From the NCBI GenBank assembly GCA_907163375.1, contig CAJQUW010007119.1, forward strand, positions 147,950 through 211,949: 64,000 nucleotides of DNA, written 5' to 3'. Within the stretch, counting starts at the first letter, position 1. Each line of letters opens with the position of its first letter. Below the pieces are notes generated by a model. It had not been told where the DNA came from, made no database searches, and was given only the letters and a program-made list of their open reading frames with translations. This stretch comes from Prostheceraeus crozeri (taxonomy: Eukaryota; Platyhelminthes; Polycladida; Euryleptidae). Positions 1,911 to 56,781 of the stretch are shown in pieces. The position numbers were made by a program, and so were the translations under genes.

Positions 1911-2051
1911 TTACACACGATCTTCCGGAACGGCAGTGGGATTTTTTCTTAATTTCGGAGCGTAAAGCCGTCTCATCTTGTCGATTACTTCACTTGAGAG
2001 TTGTCTTCTTTTGTACTCCAACTTCCGCTTAAACTTCTTCTTGAGAGAGTT
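1911..2051 (-). CDS. Exon D4: basic LKKKF exon, apparent C-terminus
   Basis: Acceptor TTTCAG, phase 0. It encodes NSLKKKFKRKLEYKRRQLSS, then EVIDKMRRLYAPKLRK and a tail ending EDRV, followed by TAA (1911-1913). As in D1-D3, the same bases can instead be a phase-2 donor, GT|GTAAGA (exon end 1915), leading to a further E exon. No such exon was seen in 1-1910, so a stop here is a reasonable but unproven reading. Confidence 0.68.
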   Translation of the reverse strand, partial: NSLKKKFKRKLEYKRRQLSSEVIDKMRRLYAPKLRKNPTAVPEDRV

Positions 2052-5000
2052 CTGAAACAAATCATCTTCCGGTGTGAATTACATGCATGTTTAGAAATTT
2101 CAATTTCGGCTTGGGTGCCTACTTGCTGATTGCATATACCTGATAAACGAAAAATGTCGGACGGAAATAAATATCAATTCTGTTGCATGGATGTTATAAT
2201 TAATGTGATGGCTTATTTGTTAAGTATAACCGGCGCTGTGGCCTTGTGGTAGAGTGTTCGCTCTGCGTCCGGGAGACCTTAGTTCAAACAGTGGTCGAGT
2301 CAAACCTGAGACTTTTAAAATTAGGTACACTCTGCATTCTTGCCAAACACTCAGCACAAGAAGAATGAGAGTGTGAAGGTACTGCGCGTTGAAATTGATT
2401 TGTACACAAATCCCAAATAACAAACAAATTCTTCATCCACTTCTTGTATTGTTAAGTAGAATAAAATAAAGAAATACTGTACAAAAGTTAAAAGGATTGC
2501 GATAACATGTCCAGAGGCCTTTCGCCGGTTCACTTCAGTGGAACACACCGGATTACGGAATGGCAAGTTGCGATGTCTGACAGAGAGCGGTCACGAGAGT
2601 GAGCTAATAAACATTAATATTAATCTGCTACCACGCAAGGTGAAGTTGATACGTTTCTTTCTGTACACAAAGAGCCAGTATCATTCGCAACCGGTATTCG
2701 CAACTTGCCATTCCGTAATCCGGTGTGTTCCACTGAAGTGAACCGGCGAAAGGCCTCTGGACATGTCATCGTAATCCTTTTAACTTTTGTACAGATTTCT
2801 TTATTTTATTTAACTTAACAATACAAGAAGTGGATGAAGAATTTGTTTGTTTTGGGATTTGTGTACAAATCATGAATGAGAGTGGAATAAATAACAACTC
2901 GGCCAAATGGAATAAAGGCTCCGTGCCTAATATGCTTCCGAGTATAAACAAGGTTCATTTATTTTATTCATCGATGCAGGAAAACTAAATATCCATCGAT
3001 ATATCACTTACCCAGGTGCCATCCCTGTCCATCAACATTGGGTATCGATCGCGAATAGCCTCTCCAACTTGATAAAACTGCTGTTGAGTCATATAACTAA
3101 AAGAAAAATATCATCGTTACGAGGAAGAAAACATTGAAAGGAAATATGTTGATAACAGTTAACTGTAAGGAATCCACTTCGACCAAACGGGTTCATGAGA
3201 AATGGTGTATTTTCTAATTGTTTTCCATGTATCATGTAGTGCTATTATGCTGAGATTGTTGTTTTTAGGCGTGAAGACCCTCAACAGCAAACCTGGTAGA
3301 GAATAATCCAATGTTTATGGAAAACATAATTTCTGCCTAAACAGCATATTGATGAAAGTTCTTGTTATGGATAACTACCAAATAATGTATCAATTTTGCC
3401 GCCATTATCACTACCGTTTCACAAAAAATTGCAAATTCAAAATTATCTGACTAAAAATTGATCATTTATCACTCAATATTATGAATTAACAACGCACCAC
3501 GTACTCTCAGCATCTCCGTGGTAAGACATTAAGCTGTTTATCAAAAAAGTTTACCGTCTGGTTTTACCGTTGGTTGTCCAATTTAATTCGCTAAACGTGC
3601 CGGCTGTGTGCATATCTTTTAGCCGTTTACTGTGTTTACCAAGGAGAGATAACACACATTTCAAAAATGAAGAAAAACAAGACTGAAATATTAATAAATG
3701 TTGCCCAGCAAAGCGACTAGATCTAATAGAATACAACGACAATATAGGAACCATTATAAAGCGTAAATTTATCAGTCCGTTTTAATGGGAAATCTGATAC
3801 TTCCAAACTAACCCGCTTATCTGGTAGTAATTCCGCTAAATAAAAAAATAAAGCATCAATATCTTACTAGCTGCCGCCCAAATGTTTGAAGACATCCTTG
3901 ACAAGCGTTTGAAGAAATTCAACACCAAAGTGGAAGTCCTGTTTTAGTAAATCAGCATCCATTTGAGTGCGAATCTGTGATATTTGGTGCTTGATGTTTA
4001 GACTGAACTCTGGTAAAATGTAGATATCGGGCCAGGTACTCTTTTTTTCGTGACGTAGTCTATTGCCGATTAAGTTCGAGTTTGAAAATACGACAACACA
4101 ATCATTCGTCCAACATCGTTCCAATCCTTCGTAGTCTTCTATCACAACTTCATCTTTAGTTTTGAGGAGGAGTGGAAAGTTAGACGGAAGGCCCAACGCA
4201 CGAAGCCCTGAAAGATGGAATAATAGAATACTTCGATTGTGACCATTACTGTGATCTCGATGATTCGAGGAGTTAGCTTTGTAATAAATACACCTCTAGC
4301 ATCCTAAAAGCTATGAAGTCTGACAAACTTGAACCATGCTACAGCTAGTCATAAATTAGAGATCAAATATATAGCCTTGACTCTTTAAGTGTTCGATGTC
4401 ATCACTCCGAAACATAGATTCAGGGTTCCCGCGGCTTTTCGAACAAAAAAATCGAAGGGTCTTCAAGGGCAGAATCAATGATTTTCAGGGGTCACGTAAA
4501 TTTCAGATTTTTTCATATAAGTGTTGAAATACATTCTGCATGATCAAATAGATTATTTCTAAATTTCAAAATGAGTAGAAAATCAATTGGAATATATGTT
4601 AAATATTTGAACATTCAGTTAAAGATCTATGAGGTAACCAATGGCCGCTGCGACAGAACATGTGTCATACTGGTTAGACGTCCTAGCCGACTTGACGGCA
4701 ACAGGTAACATACGGGACAATTATAGGTTAACAAAGCAAAATGTGTTATCCCGTTAGTTGCCAACTTAGAAGACAAAATACCTACGGAATTGTATAATAT
4801 ATGGGGGCATATACATGTATAATCCCTGCACTCAAATGAGAAAACAATTTTGACTTATGCAAGTGTTAGTACATGTGAATGATTGTGTAGAAATATCTCA
4901 GTGGTTACAACTTTTTGATAAACTCCAAAAAAATTCTCAGATCATAAAATGCAGTTCAGGTTTAGCAATTTTCATGAGGAAAAATATTTCTTTAAAAGAT

Positions 5001-8000
5001 TCTAAGTGGTAATTCTCGCAGATAATTGCCAATTAGATGAAAGCTAGGCAATCGTGAATCATACATGGAATCATAACATGTAAAATATTTAAATTGATGA
5101 ATTCATCAAAATTCAAAGGTTTTCAAGGGCCGCGGGAACCCTGTATTCGGCAGCCGGTCCAGTATGAGAAATTACATCGACCTCACCGGTGCCGTTGAGA
5201 AATTGCATCGCCGAGTCAGTACCCGTCACCAGCATATGAGCACAGAAAAAATTGCGCTGCGATATAAAGTCCAACCTAATGCAATTTGAGAAGTAGAACC
5301 GTCAAACTAATTTAACAGGATTAATATTTTGCAATATTATATGCGGCAAAATAGTTCAAGGGACACATACTGCATCTGTTGTTATCCTGGTCGTGAGAAG
5401 CGTTTGAGAAACGTTTCAACCTTGATTCTCTCGTTTTAAAAAGCTTTATGTGCCGACATGAATCGACAACATTCAAAGGATATGAACATACCAAAAGCAC
5501 AAAGCCACACTAGGAAGTTAACAGTAGGATTTCCATTATGCATTATTCATTTTCAACAGCTGAAGGTCAGTAACCTTAGTGAGAGTAGGTTTTATCTCAC
5601 AAAGATGTCAGACTCGAACTCTGGAAATCAAGCACTTCCTTGACGACGTGCGGGAAATGAATAAGTTAACAAAATAACCACTGTTGAAGAGTGGCATAGC
5701 TGTTTTTATTGCGTTAGAACTGCCATTTCCGTTACCATAAACTGAGTTGAGATAATTTTTAGATGATGGAGTTCAGTAAACATACCTGATTGTACAAATT
5801 GATGATAAGACTTTAAAAGTAAATGTCTCATACAGCTTCCGTCCTCATTTGATATCCGAATTACACTCGTTCTCTGTAATAAAAGATATAATAATTTCCA
5901 ATCAAACACAATTGTGAATGACAATGCGATTAAACGGTTGCAAAATATGGCAAAATGTTTGATTTTTGGGTAAGGCAACAGATTGGTCGTAGTCAATATA
6001 CACTTTTCTTGCGCTAACGCTTACGAACAGCTTCGCTGGCCATCGTCAGGCGACTGAAAATAATTACATGCAAACCGATTATTCTGAGTTAAACTTCACT
6101 CTCCCAAAATGAATTACATAATAAAATTCGTGAACCTTAAAAGATCGTAGGCAAAAGAATTCATCCTCTGTCTAAGATCGGAACGAGATTATTACTGGTC
6201 GCAAGCGCTAGCGCAAAATATAAGTGTATATTTACTACGACCAGTCTGTTTCCTCATCCAAAAATGAAATCAAATGGGAGACATTTCCGTTCAACAGCAC
6301 AATTTACGAACTTAATAAAATGAATCTAGAGGGATTTCTTTCTTCTGTTTGTGGATGTGATATCGGTTAGTATCGCTTCGAGTTGCCTACACTGAGCTTC
6401 TTTCCATTATAATATAACGATCTCATTATAATTTGTCACATGCCGTTATGCAGTTTTGGCTTTCATATCTCAGCTCTCTCAATTTAGACCCACTGAGCTT
6501 TTCATACTACAGGGAATAGCACGCTTGGCCTAAAAATCCGCGGAAATACCAAAAACCCACTTTTTCATACTACTTATATTCACAGTGTTCGTACTGGCCG
6601 ATTTCGCATTTTTCGCGCCCCGCCCTGCGATTCGCGCCCCCAACTAATTGGTCTAAGATACATGTATGCACGAGCGTAAGGTCAATACATACATTTTTCA
6701 AACATATATGGAATTCATATAGGCATATTTACGGGTCAATTTCATAGGTCTATGACGATTTACAGCATTTATTAGATACCTTTGATGGAGTAGATGAAAA
6801 CATAATTGATTAATGGATGGCCCTGCATGGAGCAGACAACCATATGATATTAATGAGATCATATACGAACATATAAGTACGCTATAATGTATTCATTCTA
6901 ATTCGGTACTATAATATTTCCGCAACGTTGAATCAAATGAGCCTAAGGAACCCCGAAAATGCCTTTTCCAGTTCCAATTGGCTAGGATTTGGTTGTGGGG
7001 CCTTAGAAAAATGCCCGAAATCACTACAACCAAATCTGGGCCAAATGGAACCGAACCAAAGACTAAAATCGGGGTGTTCGGGCCTGTCATACCTGACATT
7101 TTCTCGGTGTAGTCAACGTCTTCGTTAAAATAACGTCGCCACACTTTCCATCTGGTACTGAAATGTAACATAATAAGCTCCATTAATACACCGTAAGAGT
7201 TTATGCCCTATTTTCCTTGTGATTTAAATGAAGAAAAGATCAGAAATGAAAGTACACATGTAAGTAGTTTCATTCAATCAGGTACATGATGATCGAGCTG
7301 TGTTGAATCAAAATGCTGTCTAAAAGCGCTAGGCACTGATAAAGAAAATATCACTTCAATTTCTTGGGAGAAATAACTTTCAGTTCTTCATGTGCTTTTC
7401 GCTTCAAAGTACTAGTCATGAGCTTCTCAGCTACTGCTCGTTTCTTTTCTTCCATCTTCTCCTTCTCATCAAGCAGAGCTTTAAGGTGGTCCTCCTCTTC
7501 CTTTAATGACCGTAATGCCTCCTCCTGCATTTTCACGAGGCTTTCTTTCCGTTTCATGATATCGCTGATTCGCTTTTCGTTGTTTTTGAGACCGGACTCT
7601 AACTCATTCAGCTTTGAATCATTTTTCTTCTGATTTTCGAAAGTTTTTAATATATCCTTCTCTGCTGCCTCTTCCTCCATCTCGCTCTTCAAACGCAGCT
7701 CATATGCTTGTTTGGCTTTGGCAACTTTCTCCAAAAGTGCCTGTGTCACTTCGAAGTTTCGCGATGAGATATTATTCGATGCCATGGCGCTCTTAATAAC
7801 GACGATCGCATTTATTGTAGTCGCGGACAGGTTACTCCGTTTCTTTGTCACTAGATCAGGCAGCAAACTGAACACCCTCTCCACTTCTGCGTTTCCGTGG
7901 GGTAATGTCATCGTGACTCGAGCCAGACGACTCAGAGTTGGCATCTTTGAGGACATTTTCTGCCAGTATTCTCCAATGTCCATTGGCTTCTCTGTTGTAC

Positions 8001-11000
8001 CTTGGAGGAGTCGAGCTTCAACTTCAAGAGTAGAAATCTCGTTTTGAGGAACAATTTGGGGAAAGCACTTCGCAAGAGTCTTCGCCCAGTTCTCCAGATC
8101 AGCATCGTTCGAATGATTCAGTTGTCTTCGGAAATCAAGAAATAAAAAACGTACCGGACATGGTTCTCTTTGAAGGACAGTCGAAAAAGGAAAGGCAGGA
8201 TCGAAATTCGACGAGCTTTTAGTCGTCGTAAGCCAGAAACGTTTTGATGATCATCTCTCTTTCTATTGCGAGTTGACCAACATATTACGTCCGTAGAATA
8301 CGCAGTGATGATTACGGTATGTCGTAGTAGGTTTACACATTATTCCTATTTGTTAGTGTTATGTCAGGAAGGCATTTTCTGGAATAAGAAGGAAAATATT
8401 CAATTCTATTACTGTCATCAATCTGATACATAGTCGTAGACACATCTAACAGTTCCCAGTGATATATTATAGTCAAATATTTTTTGGGGAGCGAAAATAT
8501 ATGGGACAATATTGGGGCGCGAAAATATTTTCGGAATTTTCGCGCCCGCCTTCATTTTTCGCACATTCGCGCCCGTTTTTACGGAATTCGCGCCCCAGTA
8601 CGAACACTGTATTCATCGATTTTTTTATGATCTAATTTTGGCTAGCAATTTTCTAAAGCACGAGTTCTTCAATAGAAAAAAATCAAAATTCAAATGCAAT
8701 TTTCAATTTCTAAACAAAACACATTCACAGACAGTAACGCGGAAACTTCCAACAATAATGCGGAAATTTCTATACATGCGCATCAGTGATAACATTTCAG
8801 ATAAATGAAAAAGAGAAACACTTTGTATTGTTCATTAACATTTGCATGTGGTTTCTAATCTGGGCTCGGATTTTTACTTTTTCACATAATTTGACATTTT
8901 CCGGAATTTTACATTTCCCCCCTACCCCTATATTTCTTCATTCCATATTTGCACGAAATACGAGAATGACCATTTCCATCACCAAATCCGCGGAACCGTT
9001 TTACTCCCTGATACTATGAATACAAGGATAGCATGGCTATCAAAAAATGTGTCAATAAATTCAGATGCATGCACATGAACCGCAGGATGCAGTTATCTTC
9101 AAGAATTTATGCATTGAAAAGTGTTGAATGAAGCCTATAAATGCTTTCAATTTCAACAGACTGAAGGCTCCAGTTGAAATGCATTGGGTTGATGGATAAA
9201 GTTCGGCTTAGGTTTAGTTTGCTTGGTTCAAATTTCCTCGTTTTTCGACGTCTCTGCTTCCACTTTAGTCGAGAGCAATGTCTTCTGAAAAACTAAGTAT
9301 CACAAGACTTTCTTAAATTGATGCGTGCCATAACGTCCTAGTGGTCGGTCACCATTAAATGGCGCATTTCACCGGTGTTGTTATCTATAGCTCTTTTCAC
9401 AGGCTAAAGTTCGGATCAGTCTTAGTGATGCTTCCATCAATTTTGAATTTGAATTGCGTCATAAAATTTTGCGAATGCACTGTCTATATTACGATGATGA
9501 AAACGTTAACTGGATCTGCTAAAGACGTTTCATCAATTTTAGACTTACCGATATATTTTTCCTCTTTGCTCTGTTTCCCTGGACGCTGGATACTCGACCA
9601 TGCTCCACCGTTCTTTGGATCCGTTCTTCTTGATTCTCTGGATCTACTTCCACGCTTGCTGTCACATCTTGGTCCTCGTCAATGTCGCAAGTCGGTGCAA
9701 CTCTGAAAAGTTGAATTCATTGATCCGATAGGAATCAAAATCTAATTGATTTCAAATGTGTTGTTATAGTTACATTTAATAAGGTATTTTTTAGGAGCAA
9801 ATCCTATCAACTTTATAAAAATAGATGGATAGAAATAGATTGGCGCTCCTCAGAATTTCAAACAGCACCATCGACTGAAACGAAATATCGAAGAATTAAG
9901 ACTGTTATAACTTACACAGATGGATTTCTCATTGCATGGAAGCCACTTTTCTTCTTATGAAGACCATAAATTCTCCGCATTTCTTCCTTCTTTTCACTCG
10001 TTAAATTTCTTCTGTTGTATTCCATTTTTCTGACAAATTTACACCTCAATGTAGTCTGAAAATTAAAGTAAAATGAGAAGCATAACTTTTCTGATACATG
10101 CTTTATAAATTTTTGACATTTGAACTTGACATGCTAGAGATCAATAAAACTTCTTTTTACTGTCTTCCATTTTGCACTTGGTTATTACTACTTAAATTGT
10201 TTCAGCAACATATTTGATCACTCCGCGGTATCTTAAACTCATCAGTAAAACAACCAGATGCTAGATATAAAAATCAAATATTTCTTTACGAAAATATTCA
10301 TCCTTGTAATCGAATACGCAACATGAGTTTGCATACTGGGACTATTAATGATACATTCGTAAAAATGATTAGGAAATTTATACAACAATTAAGATAAAAA
10401 AATGAAATTTGTATTTCAGAAAACATTAAATGATTTTGAAAACCTGCATCGATTGCCAGAATTGTTAAATCGGTTGATTCTTGTCAGTTCGACAACGGCA
10501 CCACATGGGCGACAATAATAAAAGTTCAGCAACGAAATTTCATCATAAAAGGCATTTTAACTTCAATTGTACTATCTTTAACTGAATTATATTTATTTCA
10601 AATACATATTGAATATAATTATGTTATTTTTCGACTTCATAATTATTTTTGACGTACAAAGAATCGACTCAAATAATCAGAGGAGCTCGAGAGGCTTTGC
10701 CAAATAACCGATATCAGAGAACATAAAAATTTACCATGCTCCTCCACTTTTAATGCTTGACGCTGATTTCTAGATTTCTCTTAAGTTAAAACTTTAGGGA
10801 AACCGAGCCTATTCCTCAGCAGAGGATAAATGTAAAAAGCAAAAGAGCTTAGTTATATGAGGTTTATAAAGTAGAATAGTGAAGTTATCAAAAACACAGA
10901 ATAATACATGATATTTGAATTTCAGCTTGTTAATGATGTTAAACATCATGGACCAAACTAATGAAAGCTATAATCAGAAATAATGCGAGAATTACAGCGA

Positions 11001-53000: not shown

Positions 53001-56000
53001 TTATATGACTCTAAATTTAGAAAATGCTTTTTAGGAACACCAGCGATTATAACGATTGATCGTTGAGGCGGAATCTCACTTTTGTGCAAAAGTTTCCTGC
53101 TACCCAGGAAACGATCTTACGATAAATTTCAATGTAGACCGTGGTCTCTTAAGTTAAAAAAATTGATCACGGTTTCGGTTTCTGCGTCCAGTGTATTGAT
53201 TCTTGATTATTGTATCTTGTATTTGTTAAGAGACTGAATACTCTCTTACTCAATTAGGGAAGAAATTAGCCTATTCAACACTTAACTTGCATGCACATCG
53301 ACAATGAATGTATTCGCATGCAAATCGACAAATAGAGCGGACAGGTGACATCAAAAGCAGCAAGAATTTCACCATTTCTTTTACTATCTTATGTATGTGT
53401 TGCTCAAATGAGGAAGAAAATGGTACTAGACTCAAGATACGTTAAGGGCGATATTCAGTACAAATAGCATAACAAAACAATTTCCCGGGAATCTCGACAT
53501 GAGTTCCCCACTTGAAAATTATCGGGAATTCCCGGAACCAAATTTCTCGGGACAAGACCCTAGGTTTGAGGCAAATGCATAATGACGACGTATTACAAAC
53601 AACGTATTTTGTTTGTTGCCAAATTCACTCACCCAGGTACCATCTTCGTCCAACAGCATAGGATAAGCCCGAGCAATTGCCTTGCCGACTTCTGCATATT
53701 GCTGCTTTGTAGGATACCTGTAATTTCTTTGTGATGAGACATACTCGTATACATAATAAGTTGAAAAATCTACTCACCAGCAGTCGTCGCAATATTGGCT
53801 GATGTCTTCCATTATCGGATTCAAAAACCCAGTGGTAAATTTTAGGCAGTTTTTAAGTTTGGAAGCCTCAGCTGGACTCCTAATTGCAAGTATCTGTCTT
53901 TTGATATCAGTACTTAGTTCTGGTAGTTTATAATTAGAAGGCCACTTCAAATTACGACTTATTTCTTGTGGATCATTCAATTTCTTCAATTTACGTTTTC
54001 CTTGTGGTTCATTCAATTTTCTCGGTAGAATTAGTTCTTGCGAGTCTTCCCTCACTATATCCATGAAAAATATTGTTAATCCTTCATTTGCACAATATTC
54101 GATTCCTTTGTCGTCTTTAATTTTTGAACCATTTTGAGCTAACATCAATAACGGATAATCAAGTGGATATCCTAATAGTTTAAGACCTGAAACAGACAGG
54201 AGCAAAACTAAATATTCATTTATGGATTGTAGTCGCACCGCCACGTTGTTTAATTACTCCTGAATTCGCATGTGCAAACAACGAGGTCGTGCCACCAGAT
54301 GGATGAGGAGCTGGCTGTATCCTAGATAATAGACAAGTTATAGGACGACGAAGATTGATTTGAGGTGCATTTTTTACAAACAAAATTCATCTGTTCATAG
54401 ATCTTGGTGAGATGCCGTAGACAAGAAAGACAAGTATTGTCTTCTTTATGCATTTTCTAGAATCAGTAACGGATTTCATAGCAAATAAGATAACATTCCT
54501 TAGAATCATGCACGTAAATAAATCGTTACGTTGGGATTAAATGCACATATTTTTGAGCAATTGATACCGACTGCTCTATATAAATATAAAATGTGAATGC
54601 ATGATCAATTTCTCAAATGTTATTGAAAGTTAGAAACCCAAGTATTTGTAAATTTTGTTTTTAGCTGATGGTCCGACATTCTTAACGACATGACAGATAT
54701 CGTCGTTGACCAAACGGCGGAAGATCATAGTCATTACAGCCATTAGCAAAAATCAAAATTCCTTTAGTTTATGATCGATTTCAATTGACGTTTAAATTAT
54801 ACTGAAGATGACGGCACTGAATCTTCAATGGGGGTATAGAAACTAAATGGACGTTCACATATTCTATTTAGCTGGGGACCACGGGTTTCCAAAGCTCAAA
54901 ATCGCCAGGGTAAAATAGTGCAAAACTTGCACCTAGATTAGATTATAAATCGAATCAATTTCCCGACGTGACTGTCTCTATCTGCGCAGAAAACAAGCAG
55001 AACCATCCATTGCAAGACCCAAAATACGCTCAACGCCGTCCAAGAATGGTGCCATACTAACGACGTGTCCCTCAATGCTAACAAAACTGTTGAGATGCTT
55101 GTCCGTGCAAGAATGGAACACAACGTTGACCATGTTTTCATTGGAAACATCCCGATTCAGCAGGTGAAATCTGCGAAACTGCTTAGAGTCATAACTGACT
55201 TTTCCATGTGTAGTCTTAGGTATAGTGTGTATAGTTTCATTGCTTTCGGTGTAGTAGAGTGTCATTGTAATTCTATTGTTTACCTCCATTATCCACTTTC
55301 CACTTATCCACTTTGTGTAGTGTCAGATATAGTTCACTTGTAATCAGTGTAGTAGCATCGTTGTATTTCCATATTTTACCTCCACTTTTCCAATTTTTAT
55401 TCATCGGTTTCCTGTTGTTTTATAATATCCATTTTTTAATTTCCTTAACCTATGGTGACCATTGTCTTATTCTATTTCCACTATCAGCATCTGTAGTCGG
55501 TACAGTATATTAGAAGTCTGTTTTGAACGTGTATACGGCAGTGTTTGGAATCTATGGTATTAGTATATCAACAGCAAGAATGAGTAGTATTACAAGTCTT
55601 AAGATTTCCATTTTTACCAGATATTGGGCCAAAGCTGATCAATTTTAATTCGTTGCCACGAGAAAGCTACATTGAGTTCTTTTAAGAACTGATTAATCCA
55701 ATGGTTACAGTAGCATTGCCTTTGTACACTTGCGGATTGGAGAACGCCATCAGTCCTCCTTAGGACTACTTTAACTAATAATTTAAATTAGTAAGCATTA
55801 TATTCTATTATAAATGGCTACTGGGATGACTTTCATCATCGTATGAGAATCACCTCATCTTCCGGGAACATGTTGAAATGTCGAAGCGCAAAGAATTTCA
55901 GCGGATACTTTGGCTATATGGCGGCTCAGACAACATGGCGGTAACCGCGAAGGCCTGATTCGACTGTATCGATCCAATATAAGGTGTGTTATGAACACGC

Positions 56001-56781
56001 ATCTCATGCTTGATTCCTTCACATGTCGAAGAAGTTGCACTCAATCATAGAAGCGTCGAAAGTTGTACTTTAAAAGCTATCCATCCGACTTTTTCATAGT
56101 GAACCACTTAAAGAGAACAACATACCCTGAATTACTGCTCATCTGGAAAAACTTGTTCTCCATCATTTTAGGAAGATACAGCAGTAACGTCGCCCACTTC
56201 GTCATCTCTTCCATGTGCCTCAATGACAAACTTGTCGAACCAACACCAGACAATGTGACCTTCTCACAGTGTCAAAACACCGCATGGATTTGCACCGCAA
56301 GTCGTTTACAGTGACTGCAACCAAAGCGCTGAACAAATACCAACACGCGTGAAGTGATTTGAATTTTACTTTTTCGCTGACTGAGTGTTCATGTAATGAT
56401 GTACCTATGAATGCTCCTTGACATTCGAGAATAAACCCGTCTCTCTCCATCTCTCAAATAGATGCACCCAAGAAAATATTTGAAAGTAACGAACATTCAT
56501 ATGCATTATTTTCTGCTTGCTTGAACTGAAACTTTATTGATGAAAATGCTCATAGTGATCCAGCTAAGCTGTGGTTAGAATTCACTTGTTGGATATTCAG
56601 GTTTTGGAATTTTTCAAAACAATATATTTTACGACAAGACTTTGGCTAACTAGTGTTTCAAACGTGAAATAGTTGACAGAAGCCTACCTTCAGCAGCAAA
56701 CTGATGAAATGGTTTCTTACGCAACAGTCGCATGCAGGTCTTATCTTTATTTGAGATTTTGATCATGTCCGGATCCATTTC
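1911..56781 (-). CDS. Giant spliced gene with four tandem CIDE-N-like modules (31 exons)
   Basis: Thirty-one short minus-strand open exons, each bounded by AG acceptor and GT donor (the last by TAA), join without any phase conflict into 4,281 nt (1,427 codons) before TAA at 1911-1913. Four modules A-B-C-D(-E) lie at joined-protein residues 1-284, 709-949, 950-1210 and 1211-1427; residues 285-708 are acidic linker. A plus early B resembles CIDE-N: an (I/V)S-N-E-D-G-S-R strand, a helix, then GLPPDFPLILKTDG and an acidic ED-E/D-G turn. B then has WP-x-NF-x-LP; C has a YPMLMDRDGTW motif; D has a basic LKKKF-x-RKLEYKRR motif. C-D recall uncharacterised fish proteins, some named SAMD3-like (from memory). 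CIDE-N domains are known for head-to-tail self-assembly in apoptotic nuclease and lipid-droplet proteins; no function is shown here. The alternative, four separate genes, is less likely because A2-A4 start at acceptors with no nearby Met and E2/E3 bridge modules in phase. The true 5' and 3' ends are unproven. Confidence 0.7.
2228..2396 (+). repeat. tRNA-derived SINE head, interrupted by a foldback
   Basis: GTGGCCTTGTGGTAGAGTG (A box) and AGTTCAAAC (B-box-like) mark a tRNA-type promoter. The same head occurs at 21081. The matching tail (AATAAATAACAACTCGGCC) resumes at 2886-2960 after the foldback at 2397-2871, which suggests the foldback inserted into the SINE. Confidence 0.6.
2397..2871. mobile_element. 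Foldback element (about 475 bp, arms about 175 bp)
   Basis: The arms at 2397-2572 and 2699-2871 are near-perfect inverted repeats; for example GGCAAGTTGCG against CGCAACTTGCC, and GTACACAAATCCC against GGGATTTGTGTAC. The spacer is 126 bp. There is no coding capacity. It is MITE-like and lies in the C4-D4 intron. Confidence 0.85.
3012..3096 (-). CDS. Exon C4: YP...DGTW exon, module 4
   Basis: 85 nt, phase 2 to 0, acceptor TTTTAG-like (CTTTTAG), donor GTAAGT. It encodes YMTQQQFYQVGEAIRDRYPM then LMDRDGTW. The first Tyr codon is split with B4. Confidence 0.8.
3097..3867. other. Intron B4-C4
   Basis: Unique-looking AT-rich intron. Short minus-strand frames here lack flanking splice signals in the right phase and are left out. 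Confidence 0.6.
3868..4207 (-). CDS. Exon B4: second half of CIDE-N-like domain plus WP-LP region, module 4
   Basis: 340 nt, phase 1 to 2, acceptor TTTCAG, donor GTAAGA. It encodes GLRALGLPSNFPLLLKTKDE and VVIEDYEGLERC, then a longer loop, TWPDIYILPEFSLNIKHQI, DADLLKQDFHF and FLQTLVKDVFKHLGGS. It is 24 nt longer than B2 and B3 because of the loop before WP. Confidence 0.8.
4421..5143. mobile_element. Non-autonomous hAT-like element
   Basis: The inverted termini CAGGGTTCCCGCGGC (4421) and GCCGCGGGAACCCTG (ends 5143) are typical of hAT (CAGGG...CCCTG). The interior is AT-rich and non-coding. No clear 8-bp target duplication is visible. It lies in the A4-B4 intron. Confidence 0.7.
5786..5873 (-). 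CDS. Exon A4: first half of CIDE-N-like domain, module 4
   Basis: 88 nt, phase 0 to 1, acceptor TTACAG, donor GTATGT. It encodes RTSVIRISNEDGSCM then RHLLLKSYHQFVQS. SCM rather than SRR after NEDG is shared with A1 (TCM), hinting that modules 1 and 4 share ancestry in this part. Confidence 0.77.
5962..6264. mobile_element. Foldback MITE (about 300 bp)
   Basis: The inverted arms of about 60 bp at 5962-6021 and 6204-6264 share TTGGTCGTAGTCAATATACAC against GTGTATATTTACTACGACCAG and a GCGCTAGCGC-like centre. No ORF. It lies in the A4-E3 intron, close to A4. Confidence 0.7.
6583..8609 (-). mobile_element. hAT transposon with transposase remnant and 6-bp TSD
   Basis: Perfect 15-bp terminal inverted repeats CAGTGTTCGTACTGG start at 6583 and end at 8609. 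TATTCA directly flanks both ends (6577-6582 and 8610-8615), a 6-bp rather than the usual 8-bp hAT duplication. Subterminal TTCGCGCCC-type repeats occur at both ends. The element encloses the transposase C-terminal frame at 7351-8252. Confidence 0.82.
7351..8252 (-). pseudogene. hAT transposase C-terminal fragment with a coiled-coil tail
   Basis: The frame is open from a stop at about 8252 to TGA at 7351-7353, about 300 codons. It includes the hAT dimerisation signature LPHGNAEVERVFSLLPDLV followed by KKRSNLSATTINAIVVIKS. It is preceded by VRFLFLDFRRQLNHS and WAKTLAKCFPQI. The last 130 or so residues are a Lys/Glu-rich predicted coiled coil ending KAHEELKVISPKKLK, unusual for a hAT end. The N-terminal zinc finger and catalytic parts are missing from the 2-kb element, so it is a truncated, probably inactive copy. 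An in-frame Met occurs at 7981-7983. Confidence 0.78.
8616..9548. other. Intron E3-A4, part beyond the hAT element
   Basis: AT-rich, with CCGCGGAA near 8990 echoing 6538-6544 before the hAT element. That suggests the hAT may have inserted into an older repeat. No gene. Confidence 0.4.
9549..9702 (-). CDS. Exon E3: acidic bridge from module 3 to module 4
   Basis: 154 nt, phase 2 to 0, acceptor TTTCAG, donor GTAAGT. Read in phase 2 it gives 51 open codons: VAPTCDIDEDQDVTASVEVD, then PENQEERIQRTVEHG and a basic end KRKNIS. It ends on TCG like E1 and E2. Splicing to A4 gives KRKNIS-RTSVIRISNEDG. Confidence 0.68.
9916..10055 (-). CDS. Exon D3: basic LRCKF exon, module 3
   Basis: 140 nt, phase 0 to 2, acceptor TTTTCAG-like, donor GTAAGT. 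It encodes TTLRCKFVRKMEYNRRNLTS, then EKKEEMRRIYGLHKKK and a short tail. The pattern LT/SSE..(E)MRRxY is shared with D4 (LSSEVIDKMRRLY). Confidence 0.78.
10056..12191. other. Intron C3-D3
   Basis: About 2.1 kb of AT-rich sequence with no open frame of note and no repeat that I could delimit. Confidence 0.6.
12192..12276 (-). CDS. Exon C3: YP...DGTW exon, module 3
   Basis: 85 nt, phase 2 to 0, acceptor TTTCAG, donor GTGAGT. It encodes YLSRKQLSAIGEAIRRAYPM then LMDRDGTW. It is separated from B3 by 2.9 kb of intron holding three minisatellites. Confidence 0.8.
12816..13085. repeat. Minisatellite, about 62-bp units
   Basis: About 4.4 imperfect units start near 12817, 12879, 12940, 13001 and 13063. 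The shared core is TTTTGGGAGTATAACTAGT and CTTTTATG, ending AAGCGCCGCAG. A stray partial unit occurs at 13172-13205. Intronic (C3-B3). Confidence 0.85.
13236..13365. repeat. Minisatellite, about 33-bp units
   Basis: Four units of the type CATCTGAAGGGGTCCCGTTC followed by TCATCCTCCTTC occur, starting just after the 62-bp array. The plus-strand open frame through it is a consequence of the unit length being near a multiple of three and is not taken as a gene. Confidence 0.85.
13925..14110. repeat. Dispersed repeat with CGCCGCGGCGTTTATT-type head, copy 1
   Basis: It aligns by eye with 48352-48545: AACGCCGCGGCGTTAATTTA, then CTACTT-TAAGTGC and TTCCAATTGAATAACAA, then AGCTGAAAA-TAATCTAG. Probably a non-autonomous DNA element; ends not resolved. 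Confidence 0.5.
14517..14951. repeat. Complex minisatellite with higher-order structure
   Basis: The array has about nine variants of GACCTCTCAGCTGGTGCGCT followed by TATTAGAGGGCGGCGTTTAT and TAAAGTGTTGAT. A composite of about 136 bp (three variant units) is repeated at about 14592-14727 and 14728-14863. The GGCGTTTATT core also occurs in the nearby dispersed repeat at 13925, from which the array may derive. Confidence 0.85.
15147..15462 (-). CDS. Exon B3: second half of CIDE-N-like domain plus WP-LP region, module 3
   Basis: 316 nt, phase 1 to 2, acceptor TTTCAG-like (TTTTTCAG), donor GTAAGA. It encodes GLRMLGLPPDFPLILKTDGD and VVIEDDDGLRYC, the closest of the four to a CIDE-N consensus, then LHITFADF, WPANFRLPDL, DADKLKKNFTF and FLRPLVDHVSKYEESG. 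Confidence 0.83.
15463..17934. other. Intron A3-B3, main part
   Basis: Short scattered frames only (for example 16075-16290 and 17531-17818), without recognisable domains or exon-like splice context. Continues into the LINE tail at 17935. Confidence 0.55.
17935..18563 (+). repeat. LINE 3' region copy 1 (about 630 bp)
   Basis: It is highly similar to 55246-55849 along its whole length: TTCTATTGTTTACCTCCATT, TTCCAATTTTTATTCATCGG, CATTTTTACCAGA-ATTGGGC, and an end at GGGATGA-TTTCATCATCG. In the second copy the same sequence follows a reverse-transcriptase fragment, which identifies it as the tail of a non-LTR element. Confidence 0.75.
18741..18828 (-). CDS. Exon A3: first half of CIDE-N-like domain, module 3
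   Basis: 88 nt, phase 0 to 1, acceptor TTTCAG, donor GTAAGC. It encodes RHNVLRVSTEDGSRV then RDLLIKPFEQFVKV. It is aligned without gaps to A2 and A4. The N of NEDGS is replaced by T. Confidence 0.78.
18890..18935 (-). CDS. Exon E2: bridge from module 2 to module 3
   Basis: 46 nt, phase 2 to 0, acceptor TTTCAG, donor GTGAGT. Only the phase-2 reading fits both neighbours: TVSVYESDEEHQEIS. It lies 61 nt from exon A3, and splicing gives HQEIS-RHNVLRVSTEDG. This small exon is the key evidence that modules 2 and 3 belong to one transcript. Confidence 0.65.
18936..21080. other. Intron D2-E2, main part
   Basis: AT-rich; nothing delimited before the SINE at 21081. Confidence 0.55.
21081..21395 (+). 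repeat. tRNA-derived SINE, copy of the 2228 family
   Basis: CGGCGCTGTGGTCTTGTGG marks the head, followed by ACACTCTGCATTCTTGC and ACACTCAGCACAA. The tail GGATAAATAACAACTCGGCC ...CTCCGAGTATAGGTTCATTT matches 2886-2960. The middle differs from the 2228 copy, where a foldback is inserted. It lies in the D2-E2 intron. Confidence 0.65.
21493..21680 (-). CDS. Exon D2: basic exon with a nuclear-localisation-like motif, module 2
   Basis: 188 nt, phase 0 to 2, acceptor TTCCAG, donor GTAAGT. It encodes NTLKKKFIKKLEYKRRFVTS, then MLYKRSRNGEGG and PPMKKRKSNQSR, ending in an acidic DLSQEENSS. PMKKRKS resembles a monopartite nuclear localisation signal. It is the longest D exon. Joined to E2 it reads SSM-TVSVYESDEEH without a break. 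Confidence 0.76.
22470..22845 (-). pseudogene. Non-LTR retrotransposon RT C-terminal fragment (RTE/L2-like)
   Basis: The minus-strand frame reads KMKCLRAIYGTSIRDRIPNE, then AIRRNLHMNTTIVEIRL and SWFGHVARRP, before a TGA. This is the classic RT tail (IYG-x-x-xRDRIPNExIRR...WxGHVARR). Further similarity (LRPRGRPVKR) continues in the next frame, so there is at least one nonsense or frameshift change. Intron D2-C2. Confidence 0.75.
22846..24568. other. Intron C2-D2, part beyond the LINE fragment
   Basis: Short frames at 23216-23768 have no recognisable similarity. No further module exon seen. Confidence 0.5.
24569..24653 (-). CDS. Exon C2: YP...DGSW exon, module 2
   Basis: 85 nt, phase 2 to 0, acceptor TTTTAG, donor GTGAGT. 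After the split Gly it encodes YLSKTQLIQIGETIRRTYPK then LMDRDGSW. The 72-nt intron to B2 is the shortest in the gene. Confidence 0.8.
24726..25041 (-). CDS. Exon B2: second half of CIDE-N-like domain plus WP-LP region, module 2
   Basis: 316 nt, phase 1 to 2, acceptor TTTCAG, donor GTAAGA. It encodes GLRILSLRQDFPLILKTDSN and DVIEDDEGLQYC, matching the CIDE-N 'LVLEEDGT-V-DDEEYF' region. Next come LHITFADYN, WPANFRLPDI and a helix with DADRLKQNFQF and FLRPLVEHVSKYQDSG. It has the same length as B3. Confidence 0.82.
26043..26130 (-). CDS. Exon A2: first half of CIDE-N-like domain, module 2
   Basis: 88 nt, phase 0 to 1, acceptor TTCCAG, donor GTAAGT. It encodes SHDLLRISNEDGSRR then SYVRIKPFRQFVRA. 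CIDE-N domains typically have R/K-x-x-N-x-D-R/G-S-R followed by a G-V-x-x-x-SLxEL helix; the NEDGSRR turn and KPFRQFV fit that. There is no Met at its start, consistent with an internal exon. Confidence 0.78.
26304..26399 (-). CDS. Linker exon L13 (ES type), last before module 2
   Basis: 96 nt, 32 codons, phase 0 to 0, acceptor TATAG, donor GTAAGT. It encodes EPERSTTINRSSVSSPQQLA and EKSPARAERKEQ. SSVSSPQQLAE aligns with SSASSLQQLAD of L11. It ends in phase 0, and exon A2 starts in phase 0 only 173 nt later, so the linker runs into module 2. Confidence 0.7.
26575..26770 (+). repeat. tRNA-derived SINE, family 3 copy 1
   Basis: An A-box-like ATTGGCTAAGTGCTTGG and a B box GGTTTGAGACC are followed by GTGTCATTGG, AGTCGGTAGGATGGGCATCC and GACTATGTC. 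The same order occurs at 42629-42815. Confidence 0.68.
27247..27357 (-). CDS. Linker exon L12 (PI type)
   Basis: 111 nt, 37 codons, phase 0 to 0, acceptor TTCCAG, donor GTAAGT. It encodes TPIFLPISNELEASDDDYSS and IREFAEARVVAQEEESG. It is the homologue of L10, with the same boundaries and the same IREFAEARV motif. Confidence 0.73.
27644..27745 (-). CDS. Linker exon L11 (ES type)
   Basis: 102 nt, 34 codons, phase 0 to 0, acceptor TAAAG, donor GTATGT. It encodes ESPMETRMSLEDSSASSLQQ and LADERLAVAEEDHQ. It has the same length as L8 and L9 and the same S-x-(Q)Q/RQ pattern. The L11-L12 order repeats the L9-L10 order, so the pair was duplicated as a block. Confidence 0.72.
28444..29134. mobile_element. 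Non-autonomous hAT element with perfect 8-bp TSD
   Basis: The ends are CAGGGATGCGGAGTCC (28444) and CGACTCCACATCCCTG (ends 29134). The target duplication GTATAAAT is perfect (28436-28443 and 29135-29142). Extra subterminal copies of GATAGGACTCCGA occur near both ends. 691 bp, no transposase. It lies in the L10-L11 intron. Confidence 0.92.
30090..30600 (-). repeat. tRNA-headed SINE, copy 2
   Basis: This is the second copy of the family at 890-1380. On the minus strand an A-box-like TTAGCATAGTTGATAGA and a B box GGTTCGATCCC are visible (about 30130-30215). The tail is rich in TTTTTTGCCA-type motifs in both copies. Confidence 0.65.
31564..31671 (-). CDS. Linker exon L10 (PI type)
   Basis: 108 nt, 36 codons, phase 0 to 0, acceptor TTACAG, donor GTAGTA. 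It encodes APILLPIANEHDSNDVDYSN then IREFAEARVATREEES. It is clearly homologous to L12 (PIFLPISNE...IREFAEARV). The predicted IREFAEARV helix and the acidic end are conserved. Confidence 0.72.
31907..32008 (-). CDS. Linker exon L9 (ES type, recent duplicate)
   Basis: 102 nt, 34 codons, phase 0 to 0, acceptor CTTAAG, donor GTAAGT. It encodes ESPKETTVNHAEPITNSPRQ and PGEEGLVVTKEEVQ. It is the tandem partner of L8, separated by a 133-nt intron. Confidence 0.72.
32142..32243 (-). CDS. Linker exon L8 (ES type, recent duplicate)
   Basis: 102 nt, 34 codons, phase 0 to 0, acceptor TTTAG, donor GTAAGT. It encodes ESLKETTVNHAEPITISPRQ and PGEERLVVTKEEVQ. It differs from L9 at only three residues, and the flanking intron is nearly identical too, so exon and intron were copied together recently. 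Confidence 0.72.
32275..34914. other. Intron L7-L8, right part
   Basis: Long intron with short frames only. The repeated wording AGTTGTGGTCAGTAG / AGTTGTGGTCAGCAG near 32970 and 33295, each followed by a similar TTTGATTTGG/TCAATAAA context, hints at an old internal duplication. No gene recognised. Confidence 0.4.
34915..35400 (-). pseudogene. Penelope-like element GIY-YIG endonuclease fragment
   Basis: The minus-strand open frame continues from about 35385 to TAA at 34915-34917. It holds SKPGPKLESVINKK, a Cys cluster CHLCGILPRNYSC, YKLTCNFCNECYIGQTNRPF (GIY-YIG core with CxxC) and YEHGSKIHN, ending INRKYELPNF. The Arg after NKR-D is followed by an apparent short deletion relative to the copy at 46.2 kb (RYNEHRGDLIN). 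No reverse transcriptase is attached. Intron L7-L8. Confidence 0.82.
36098..36190 (-). CDS. Linker exon L7 (PI type)
   Basis: 93 nt, 31 codons, phase 0 to 0, acceptor ACACAG, donor GTATTA (weaker than the GTAAGT of most others). It encodes MPIKEAPNIGNNVDYYVIRE then PPETKFSVTNE. The DYYVIRE part aligns with DYSNIRE and DYSSIRE of L10 and L12. Confidence 0.65.
36264..36365 (-). CDS. Linker exon L6 (ES/PI hybrid type)
   Basis: 102 nt, 34 codons, phase 0 to 0, acceptor TCACAG, donor GTAAGT. It encodes EPHIEASSRQSSIDNSRIRE, then LRDDLNPSGEGVQS. It starts like the ES-type linkers (L8, L9, L11, L13) but contains S-x-IRE like the PI-type linkers (L10, L12), so it may represent an ancestral form. Confidence 0.68.
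36725..37075 (-). pseudogene. Non-LTR retrotransposon RT C-terminal fragment
   Basis: The minus strand reads RPRDFNLPHLECRLLDVV, a stop, then EFKMMNHRM...HFLKLYRQPC and RLNFFSQRTVDDWNALPE. This is the usual end of CR1/jockey-like RT ('LNLPTLExRR...FFSxRxVxxWNxLPE'). It is broken by one nonsense codon and has no 5' part. Confidence 0.7.
37468..38191. mobile_element. Large foldback MITE (724 bp, arms about 290 bp)
   Basis: The arms at 37468-37757 and 37897-38191 are long inverted repeats, about 90% identical by eye; for example AGTCCGGCAGCCAGAACGAG against CTCGTTCTGGCTGCCGGACT. The spacer is about 140 bp. The open frames found in the two arms are mirror images of each other and not genes. It lies between L5 and L6. 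Confidence 0.9.
38270..38416 (-). CDS. Linker exon L5 (acidic)
   Basis: 147 nt, 49 codons, phase 0 to 0, acceptor TCACAG, donor GTGAGC. It encodes LISSDAEEGEVKESLRKALG followed by LSDTSDHEDVEEERIVTTEG. The ESLRKALG segment parallels KELLRRTL in L4, suggesting both descend from one exon. Its donor lies only 80 nt from the end of a 724-bp foldback element. Confidence 0.68.
38417..39753. other. Intron L4-L5
   Basis: AT-rich intron, no repeat or frame I could support. Confidence 0.55.
39754..39939 (-). CDS. Linker exon L4 (long acidic tract)
   Basis: 186 nt, 62 codons, phase 0 to 0, acceptor CCCAG, donor GTGAGT. It encodes TLADLAMSVDND, then QEVEEEEEDSKELLRRTL and a Ser/Glu-rich end. This is the most acidic stretch of the protein, with coiled-coil-like leucine spacing around ELLRRTLM. 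It is the longest of the linker exons. Confidence 0.7.
41021..41143 (-). CDS. Linker exon L3 (Ser/Glu-rich)
   Basis: 123 nt, 41 codons, phase 0 to 0, acceptor CAACAG, donor GTAAGA. It encodes SRIEHLNWLQRSDEEGMISS then a Ser-rich part ending EKKP. No domain is recognised; probably disordered. It starts 206 nt upstream (transcript sense) of an intronic foldback element's inner neighbourhood ending at 41349. Confidence 0.62.
41349..41645. mobile_element. Foldback MITE (about 297 bp)
   Basis: The arms at 41349-41431 and 41563-41645 are inverted copies: AGTCAATAAAAGACACCAAC against TTGGTGTCTTTTATTGACT, with the inner part AGGAATCGAACCGAAGTCCG against CGGACTTCGCTTCGATTCCT. The internal sequence is non-coding. 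Intron E1-L3. Confidence 0.88.
42308..42362 (-). CDS. Exon E1: short inter-module exon after D1/L1
   Basis: 55 nt, phase 2 to 0, acceptor TTTCAG, donor GTAAGT. It encodes VNSTPDKSDLTDPDLSTS. Like E2 and E3 it converts phase 2 to phase 0 and ends in a TCG serine codon at the donor, so the three look homologous in position. Support is splice signals plus phase. Confidence 0.6.
42629..42815 (+). repeat. tRNA-derived SINE, family 3 copy 2
   Basis: TCCGTGGCACAGTGGTAAAG (A box) is followed by a degenerate B box near 42690 and the shared body AAGTGTCATTGGCAGTTGGC ...GACTATGTC. It matches 26575-26770. Intron L1-E1. Confidence 0.68.
42816..44222. other. Intron L1-E1, right part
   Basis: No exon or repeat recognised beyond the SINE ending near 42815. 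A plus-strand frame at 43115-43366 is unsupported. Confidence 0.5.
44223..44285 (-). CDS. Linker exon L1 (acidic)
   Basis: 63 nt, phase 2 to 2, acceptor TTTCAG, donor GTAAGA. It encodes YSLADDDVPEYEANEVLSYE, strongly acidic. Only module 1 has this extra 2-2 exon between D and E. It is small, so the call rests on intact splice signals, an open phase-matched frame and position. Confidence 0.6.
44800..44905 (-). repeat. tRNA-like sequence (SINE head or tRNA pseudogene)
   Basis: On the minus strand ATAGTCCATTTGGTTGAGAG (A-box region) and GGGTTCGAGTCTG (B box) are correctly ordered about 45 nt apart. The anticodon-stem region is too long and unpaired for a tRNA, so it is not called as a functional tRNA. 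Confidence 0.5.
44995..45690 (+). mobile_element. hAT (Charlie/ZBED type) element with 8-bp TSD
   Basis: The left end CAGGGGTTCTCAAACGG (44995) and right end TGAGAACCGCTG (ends 45690) match the common hAT termini. The TSD is TTGAATAG (44987-44994) against TTGTATAG (45691-45698), one mismatch. GGGTCGCG-type motifs recur at both ends. It carries a transposase remnant at about 45155-45363. Confidence 0.88.
45155..45363 (+). pseudogene. hAT transposase C-terminal remnant
   Basis: The frame reads AKFWLSSSSKHVIELHECAP, RVLIRIDATYLCEAAFSTML, LLKNKHRSRL and LIVALSSYEPR, then a stop. This is the conserved end of Charlie/ZBED5/SCAND3-like transposases (F-x-TTYLCExxFSxLxxLKxKxRxRL...LRxALSxxxPR). The rest of the transposase has been deleted. 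Confidence 0.8.
45927..46671 (+). mobile_element. PLE fragment flanked by inverted repeats
   Basis: Inverted arms of about 90 bp (45927-46017 and 46580-46671) enclose only a GIY-YIG endonuclease frame. The sequence GATCTTGTCAGT occurs immediately to the right (46671-46682) and also at 45884-45895, about 31 bp left of the element; it may be a target duplication with filler. Inverted terminal repeats are one known PLE layout. Intron L1-D1. Confidence 0.8.
46020..46476 (+). pseudogene. PLE GIY-YIG endonuclease, one in-frame stop
   Basis: The frame includes CDLPIKIISKPGPTLETFIN, CHLCSLLPQNYSC, YKLKCNLCDDFYIGQTNRPF, KRYNEHRGDLINKNKRN and YEHGIKVH. It is broken by TAG at about 46332, after which the same frame continues as FSDISISHFDIDIMD and ends INRKYELSNF at TAA (46474-46476). 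The frame has no upstream RT and is open into the left inverted arm. Confidence 0.82.
47417..47562 (-). CDS. Exon D1: basic LKRKF exon, module 1
   Basis: 146 nt, phase 0 to 2, acceptor TCGTAG, donor GTAAGT. It encodes DSLKRKFVRKLQYKRT, then a Lys-rich tail with FRQKYTVKKLKES. The basic amphipathic motif follows exon C's Trp, giving W-x-SLKxKFxRKLxYKR. It lies 6.1 kb downstream of C1, with a dispersed repeat and a PLE fragment in the intron. As in the other D exons, unspliced reading would stop at a TAA within the donor. Confidence 0.75.
48352..48545. repeat. Dispersed repeat with CGCCGCGGCGTTTATT-type head, copy 2
   Basis: Second copy of the 13925-14110 repeat, in the D1-C1 intron. It begins TTCCTCTAATATACGCCGCG and shares the TTTTCCAAATTGAATAACAA block and the AGCTGGAAACTCATCTAG block with copy 1. 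Confidence 0.5.
49502..50141 (-). mobile_element. Second PLE family fragment flanked by inverted repeats
   Basis: Inverted arms of about 110 bp at 49502-49612 and 50025-50141 (GGAAAATGCCACTGGCTA against TAGCCAATGGCATTTTCC) enclose a minus-strand frame at 49680-49985. That frame has KNCCKKCLTCNELRIGQTER, MKSRFREHVTS and HFAEEHAALPEECISWRIIC, a diverged GIY-YIG domain of a different PLE family from the 35- and 46-kb copies. Confidence 0.75.
50142..51590. other. Intron C1-D1, part between PLE and hAT insertions
   Basis: AT-rich and without recognisable coding. The last 100 bp are rich in GTAATTG/CAATTAC motifs that reappear after the hAT at 52700-52795. Confidence 0.45.
51599..52470. mobile_element. 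Non-autonomous hAT element with perfect 8-bp TSD
   Basis: The ends are CAGTGCTGCGATTC (51599) and GAATCGCAACACTG (ends 52470). The TSD GTCTGCCT is perfect (51591-51598 and 52471-52478). Subterminal AACGCGC/GCGCGT repeats are dense at the right end. 872 bp, no recognised transposase. It appears nested between two blocks rich in TGTAATTGCAATTA (51485-51590 and 52700-52795). Confidence 0.92.
52479..53632. other. Intron C1-D1, part next to C1
   Basis: No gene. A CCCGGGAA / TTCCCGG inverted motif near 53483-53545 could be the edge of another DNA element, not resolved. Confidence 0.4.
53633..53717 (-). CDS. Exon C1: YP...DGTW exon, module 1
   Basis: 85 nt, phase 2 to 0. After the split Trp it encodes YPTKQQYAEVGKAIARAYPM followed by LLDEDGTW, then donor GTGAGT. 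All four C exons are exactly 85 nt and end on Trp in phase 0. The pattern Y-x-x-x-x-Q...GxAIxRxYPML is the best conserved part of the module after the CIDE-N-like half. Confidence 0.8.
53778..54186 (-). CDS. Exon B1: second half of CIDE-N-like domain plus WP-LP region, module 1
   Basis: 409 nt, phase 1 to 2, acceptor TTTCAG, donor GTGAGT. It begins GLKLLGYPLDYPLL, continues through an acidic KDDKGIEYC turn and LTIFFMD, then reaches WPSNYKLPELSTDIKRQI and a helical stretch ending at YCDDCW, whose W codon is split with exon C1. It is about 93 nt longer than B2 and B3. The extra part is a basic segment with a short internal duplication, KLNEPQGKRK then KLNDPQ, just before WPSN. It is otherwise collinear with B2-B4. 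Confidence 0.8.
54990..55849 (+). mobile_element. Non-LTR retrotransposon remnant: RT fragment plus 3' tail
   Basis: The plus-strand frame about 55000-55197 reads NTLNAVQEWCHTNDVSLNAN, then KTVEM and, after a gap, NIPIQQVKSAKLLRVITD. This matches the jockey/CR1-type RT segment 'LN-x-VxEWCxxNxMxLNxxKT-x-x-M ... KxLGV'. The tail at 55246-55849 duplicates 17935-18563. 5'-truncated and inactive. Confidence 0.7.
55850..56687. other. Intron A1-B1, left of A1
   Basis: Short plus- and minus-strand frames without similarity. No exon with suitable phase and splice sites was seen. Confidence 0.45.
56688..56781 (-). CDS. Exon A1: first half of CIDE-N-like domain, module 1
   Basis: 94 nt, acceptor TTGCAG, donor GTAGGC, phase 0 to 1. 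It encodes MIKISNKDKTCMRLLRKKPF-like sequence, the most diverged of the four A exons (NKDKTC against NEDGSR in module 2). An ATG lies 3 nt after the acceptor (56776-56778), so translation could start here behind a 5'UTR intron. Equally, the frame is open from the acceptor and more exons could lie upstream. No further coding exon was recognised between 56.8 and 64 kb, which slightly favours the start reading. Confidence 0.65.

Follow-up and report, generated by a model that had tools for sequence, protein, structure and literature searches.

Exons of the array

A 64,000-nucleotide stretch of DNA from the polyclad flatworm Prostheceraeus crozeri, hereafter the window (bases 147950-211949 of contig CAJQUW010007119.1, here C5922), carries on its minus strand a series of exons in which a four-exon block, A-B-C-D, occurs repeatedly. 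Each complete block, or module, appears to encode a domain resembling CIDE-N followed by a region with the WP, YP and KR elements of SAMD3-like proteins, and the blocks more likely belong to one giant gene than to a cluster of genes. An earlier note on this DNA had proposed an open minus-strand model of 31 exons and 1,427 codons, and this model was borne out: 31 of 31 exons were located from 56781 to 1915, all with an AG acceptor and a GT donor, their phases chain exactly, and the joined frame has 1,429 codons, including a GAA before the ATG, with 0 stops. The four A-B-C-D repeats described in that note are also real, being related to each other by BLASTP at E values of 4e-96 to 2e-48 with identities of 35-55%, but four does not stand as their total; it is a lower bound, because the window edge sets the count.

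When the rest of C5922 was searched with the window exons, an array was found, all on the minus strand, of 13 modules with both parts (1-8, 10 and 12-15) and two truncated ones (9 and 11), which keep the second region only, the CIDE-N-like part having been lost. The number of modules with both parts on this strand is thus at least 13. The 3' limit that the earlier note had placed at position 1911 was rejected as well. The in-frame TAA following D1, D2, D3 and D4 is in each case part of the exon's own GTAAG donor (GTAAGA at D4), and since all four D exons run into the TAA of their own donor, the one at 1911 is not the gene end; more modules lie downstream on the contig. Exon dimensions are nearly constant along the array, with A exons of 88 nucleotides (nt) in 11 of 13 cases (A1 has 94, A12 has 91), C exons of 85 nt in 15 of 15, and D exons running from phase 0 to phase 2 in 12 of 13. 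In place of exon A, the exon chain has at modules 9 and 11 (C5922:88058-87869 and 61902-61713) short 0-to-1 exons encoding EEDPNYSPH.. and DKDPEYLPD... Two weak off-array D matches, one on the plus strand at C5922:148113-148208 (E 0.022) and another with a stop inside B4 (E 0.022), were taken as chance because neither fits the array.

Homology first revealed most of the module exons; D7, D12 and D14 come from a phase-constrained chain. The curated chain comprises 87 exons over 199,404 bp and 3,990 codons, with 0 stops and AG/GT signals at 87 of 87 exons, and its largest predicted intron has 10.9 kb. Its openness is not independent evidence on its own, because exons were selected as open. An unconstrained chain is longer, with 4,500 codons and, in addition to A1, 100 exons, some of which score near zero.

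Within the window, and on the minus strand throughout, exon A1 (56688..56781) is the first coding exon; it starts with GAAATGG and encodes the first half of CIDE-N-like domain 1. Exon B1 (53778..54186) encodes the second half of this domain and then the WP..LP part of the SAMD3-like region, C1 (53633..53717, 85 nt) the YP..DGTW element, and D1 (47417..47562) the basic LKRKF..YKR element. Thirteen linker exons follow: L1 (44223..44285), L2 (42308..42362), L3 (41021..41143), which is absent from the unconstrained chain, the acidic L4 (39754..39939), L5 (38270..38416), L6 (36264..36365), L7 (36092..36190), L8 (32142..32243), L9 (31907..32008), L10 (31561..31671), similar to L12 (27247..27357), and L11 (27644..27745), similar to L13 (26304..26399). 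Module 2 consists of A2 (26043..26130, 88 nt, first half of CIDE-N-like domain 2), B2 (24726..25041), C2 (24569..24653, 85 nt) and D2 (21493..21680), and is connected by the bridging exon E2 (18890..18935, phase 2 to 0) to module 3, with A3 (18741..18828, 88 nt), B3 (15147..15462), C3 (12192..12276, 85 nt) and D3 (9916..10055). The bridging exon E3 (9549..9702, phase 2 to 0) leads to module 4, with A4 (5786..5873, 88 nt), B4 (3868..4207), C4 (3012..3096, 85 nt) and D4 (1915..2051). D4, which has the donor GTAAGATA at its end, is predicted to splice to exons below the window, the next being C5922:147683-147635.

The bridging exons were scored with splice-site matrices built without the exon under test. 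E2 reached 18.9, and under the thresholds used the interval from D2 to A3 holds no other open candidate of phase 2 to 0; E3 reached 20.3, against 5.2 for the single other candidate between D3 and A4. As controls under this rule, the window's plus strand yielded 38 candidates (best score 18.6) and its minus strand, known exons excluded, 28 (best score 17.0); the linking exons E2 and E3 are better than chance. A possible alternative terminal exon was seen by eye after E3 (window 9284-9228, minus strand; unscored), with KTLLSTKVEAETSKNEEI and then a stop, and if used it would yield a three-module isoform.

The two parts of the module

The part of the module that matches CIDE-N is formed by its first ~73 residues, encoded by exon A and the start of exon B. 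A profile of the 13 modules compared by hhalign with seven CIDE-N sequences gave a probability of 92.3 and a P value of 5.4e-7 over 54 columns, outside which the last strand of the domain lies; the score of 36.8 was reached by 0 of 100 column shuffles, whose maximum was 15.5. The four window modules alone gave P 1.7e-4 (0 of 200 shuffles), and in a further profile-profile test 0 of 150 shuffles reached the score. Of the two Pfam families with which the earlier note had proposed to compare the modules, CIDE-N (PF02017) matches two of 13 at E up to 1 (best E 3.2e-4), below its cut-off, and PB1 (PF00564) does not occur among the matches of the 13 modules at that threshold, which cover three families. 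A search of the Protein Data Bank with module profiles returned the CIDE-N domain of CIDE-A as the sole match up to E 10, and module 3 alone returned two unrelated chains (E 0.39 and 0.69). These comparisons support the claim of the earlier note that the A+B part is CIDE-N-like. The residues used in head-to-tail pairing of CIDE domains may also have counterparts, as judged by reading an ungapped alignment: the column corresponding to R46 of FSP27 (column 6) is basic in eight of 13 modules, that corresponding to K56 (column 16) in 10 of 13, and columns 54 and 55 are acidic in 11 of 13 each.

Several results weigh against this assignment. Module 14 scores 20.8 bits with Pfam CIDE-N, below the gathering cut-off of 23.5, which is why the name "CIDE-N-like" is used here, and the four window modules have no Pfam CIDE-N match up to E 10. 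The CIDE-A match is non-significant (E 1.3 and 0.67). The R46-like basic residue is missing in five of 13 modules, and the acidic motif is largely absent from module 12, the clearest exception. Protein relatives of the modules were not found at E up to 1 among 7,997 candidates, nor, in a second search, at E up to 10 among 4,978, both searches reaching only proteins that share short exact words. It could also be that the A+B part is a ubiquitin-like domain, PB1 or other, that does not polymerise here, and that the array is a multivalent adaptor without filaments, which would be compatible with one gene. This seems unlikely, since CIDE-N was matched with 0 of 100 shuffles reaching the score, whereas no signal was obtained for the other folds: 32 of 100 shuffles reached the score for the PB1 domain of p62 and seven of 100 for ubiquitin, in a comparison that is uneven because both were single-sequence profiles, and 37 of 100 did so for the front domain of fish SAMD3-like proteins (26 of 28 sequences).

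The second half of exon B together with C and D had been viewed in the earlier note as repeat elements with basic tails, a view that had to be given up. By profile comparison, this part is the WP-YP-KR helical region of SAMD3-like proteins: hhalign against the fish SAMD3-like family gave a probability of 95.4 and P 1.9e-8 over 101 columns (0 of 100 shuffles), and the WP..F.LP, YP and KR elements occur in the same order as in the fish proteins. The large fish family (P0001-P0120; alignments contained 28, 62 and 58 of the 120 proteins listed, with 348 found) has a PB1-like front domain before the WP-YP-KR region, and its helical region has no confident match in solved structures. A predicted model of the fish protein P0104, with a predicted local distance difference test (pLDDT) score of 76.5, was compared with solved structures and with viral models, neither of which yielded a match at E 0.001 or below. 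The profile of the second module region picked up 19 chains of solved structure at E values up to 10, the best being 0.32 and none significant; the lack of a structural match is not evidence for a new fold. With Foldseek, the fish front domain had no match at E up to 0.001, and no CIDE-N structure was among the 50 rows listed. Near the contig end, exon C5922:5521-5327 resembles by eye the C-terminal TF.LRR..RWPALF tail of SAMD3-like proteins; the resemblance was not significant (22 of 100 shuffles with hhalign, using 24 of 28 fish tails). Among viral contigs, 0 of 112 stretches were confirmed as module relatives, and a search of Rfam gave nothing at gathering scores.

Duplication history and gene number

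In a tree of the 15 regions, modules 2 and 3, 8 and 10, and 9 and 11 pair with support, and modules 2-5 group at 94/91. These pairings suggest that modules were duplicated locally and that modules 8-9 and 10-11 took part in the copying of a block. Linker exons were duplicated too, L8 and L9 lying in the two copies of a 235-bp tandem duplication with 95% identity. The array would record stepwise intragenic duplication, from single linker exons up to, apparently, a two-module block. Nonsynonymous (dN) and synonymous (dS) divergence was compared in nine pairs among 12 modules, module 6 being excluded. dN/dS was 0.29/0.84 for modules 2 and 3 and 0.31/1.12 for modules 8 and 10, while the other seven pairs were saturated or nearly so in dS.

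These values bear on the idea that the duplicated modules are decaying, are riddled with transposons and yield little protein or none. The introns do hold repeats and a transposase-like open reading frame, and the CIDE-N-like part is gone from modules 9 and 11. Nevertheless, decay is very improbable: the joined exons of the 13 modules are without a stop, exon lengths are near-constant, and dN is much smaller than dS in both pairs, of the nine compared, whose dS is not near saturation. Among the intron elements, a 210-residue open reading frame in the E3-A4 intron (window 7351-7983, minus strand) resembles by eye the C-terminal part of a hAT-type transposase, and fragments like Penelope/GIY-YIG retroelements were seen by eye at 49980-49700 and 35300-34930 (minus strand). 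An interspersed repeat, 94-95% identical, occurs at 18077-18485 and 55367-55772 in the A3-B3 and A1-B1 introns, and the B3-C3 intron contains a tandem-unit array (families D1 and D7) at 14505-14962.

Two lines of evidence favour one giant gene. In A1, alone among the 13 A exons, an in-frame ATG precedes the domain; it lies within GAAATGG, immediately downstream of a splice acceptor. A paralogous A exon on contig C11668 (L027) and a near-copy on C12776 have an ATG in the corresponding place; the sign is not absolute, because a third paralogous A exon (L029) lacks one too. Moreover, a D exon normally leaves phase 2 and an A exon begins in phase 0, so that consecutive modules need a correcting exon between them. 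Such an exon was sought at 10 of the 14 junctions with matrices trained on 51 module exons (modules 9 and 11 excluded) and with 2,000 random plus-strand intervals per junction as control; junctions 1-2, with its many linker exons, 6-7, where D6 is missing, 9-10 and 11-12 were left out. A phase-correct 2-to-0 bridging exon was found in nine of 10 junctions at control fractions of up to 0.054, with a combined P of 8e-7. At D5-A6 the best candidate, of 130 nt, is a longer form with the same donor as the 49-nt exon in the chain.

The alternative is a tandem cluster of separate genes that comprise one to four modules apiece and have promoters of their own, the linkers being 5' or 3' exons of these genes or parts of read-through isoforms. 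The span of 199 kb with predicted introns of up to 10.9 kb would suit it, as would the weak or missing junctions C6-A7 and D14-A15, the possible terminal exon at 9284-9228 (unscored) and the existence of separate paralogues with the same exon order on other contigs, of which at least one (L027) has its own ATG. A cluster would nevertheless be somewhat unlikely, since 12 of 13 A exons lack the ATG that is present in A1 and the C11668 paralogue (L029 also being without one), and direct splicing from D to A would shift the frame, for which a correcting exon is at hand in nine of 10 tested junctions. The dispersed paralogues are L027 (C11668), L028 (C843), L029 (C1161), L025 (C8911) and L026 (C12776); several keep the exon order, and the pieces on C8911, C12776 and C11668 look near-identical.

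Some observations count against a single gene. Junction D14-A15 had a control fraction of 0.21; junctions 7-8, 12-13 and 14-15 are not fully independent, because D7, D12 and D14 were taken from the phase-constrained chain; and the D exon of module 6 was not found in the exon search of C5922. In addition, the curated chain stops 5.3 kb short of the contig end without a stop codon. Overall, the phases, the bridging exons and the single ATG support the claim of the earlier note that the modules lie in frame in one gene, and one giant gene appears more likely than a gene cluster.

A possible multivalent scaffold

If one gene is involved, the window would contain roughly its first third, and the gene would have been built by repeated internal tandem duplication of the four-exon A-B-C-D block. 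Its product would probably be one chain of ~4,000 residues or more, in which each complete module comprises a CIDE-N-like ubiquitin-fold domain and then a WP-YP-KR helical region, with short linker exons, many of them acidic, correcting the phase between modules. CIDE domains polymerise head-to-tail via opposed basic and acidic faces, and the filaments described in one review assemble from separate chains (PMC7156525). The CIDE-N-like domains, most of which have residues of the expected charge, basic or acidic, in the relevant columns, may pair in this way within or between chains, so that the product would be a covalently pre-arranged filament segment or nucleator, displaying many SAMD3-like regions (up to 15) for partner binding. 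Judged from the sequence, that of a multivalent head-to-tail scaffold or filament nucleator would be its likely role. For the combined proposal, from tandem duplication of the block through a single long chain to head-to-tail pairing of its domains as filament segment or nucleator, we lean mildly towards acceptance.

The helix reported for DREP4 CIDE has ten subunits and a 56.5 A rise per turn (PMC7156525), and the at least 13 domains here slightly exceed the ten of one such turn. Thirteen domains could make about one helical turn alone, or seed filaments. More speculatively, a chain of ~4,000 or more residues with at least 13 CIDE-N-like domains might amount to a CIDE filament assembled in advance and of set length, which would serve as ruler or nucleator and carry SAMD3-like regions along it; this version is doubtful.

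The proteins closest to the front domain are the CIDE-N proteins (DFF40/CAD, DFF45/ICAD, CIDE-A/B/C and DREP1-4), which resemble the modules in profile over the 54 columns and have basic and acidic residues at comparable columns. CIDE-N (NCD) domains occur in Cide and Dff proteins, with intron positions that vary in invertebrates (PMC2426694). Known members are described in two papers as having an N-terminal CIDE-N domain (PMC2426694, PMC7156525), whereas here at least 13 stand in series, below the Pfam cut-off. In the literature on CIDE-N and SAMD3, no chain with many CIDE-N domains appeared in titles or abstract openings among the matches listed, which is not proof of absence.

We know of no CIDE-N protein with a SAMD3-like region. 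The fish SAMD3-like proteins, which are uncharacterised and in part named SAMD3-like or PB1 domain-containing, share with the modules the WP..F.LP/YP/KR order over ~100 columns and a ubiquitin-like domain in front; theirs is PB1-like, with no match to the module front, and they have one copy of the WP-YP-KR region in the 28 aligned sequences, whereas the array has up to 15. Giant genes of the titin or polyubiquitin type also arise by internal tandem exon-block duplication that keeps the intron phase, as here; their repeat unit is an Ig or Fn3 domain or a ubiquitin monomer, whereas in P. crozeri it would be a putative head-to-tail oligomerisation domain.

If this reading is true, the gene would offer, in over a dozen CIDE-N-like domains strung together, a natural concatemer with which to probe filament length and nucleation. 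The SAMD3-like region would also be tied to another type of oligomerising partner, which is PB1-like in the fish proteins, presumably SAM in SAMD3, judging by its name, and CIDE-N-like here.
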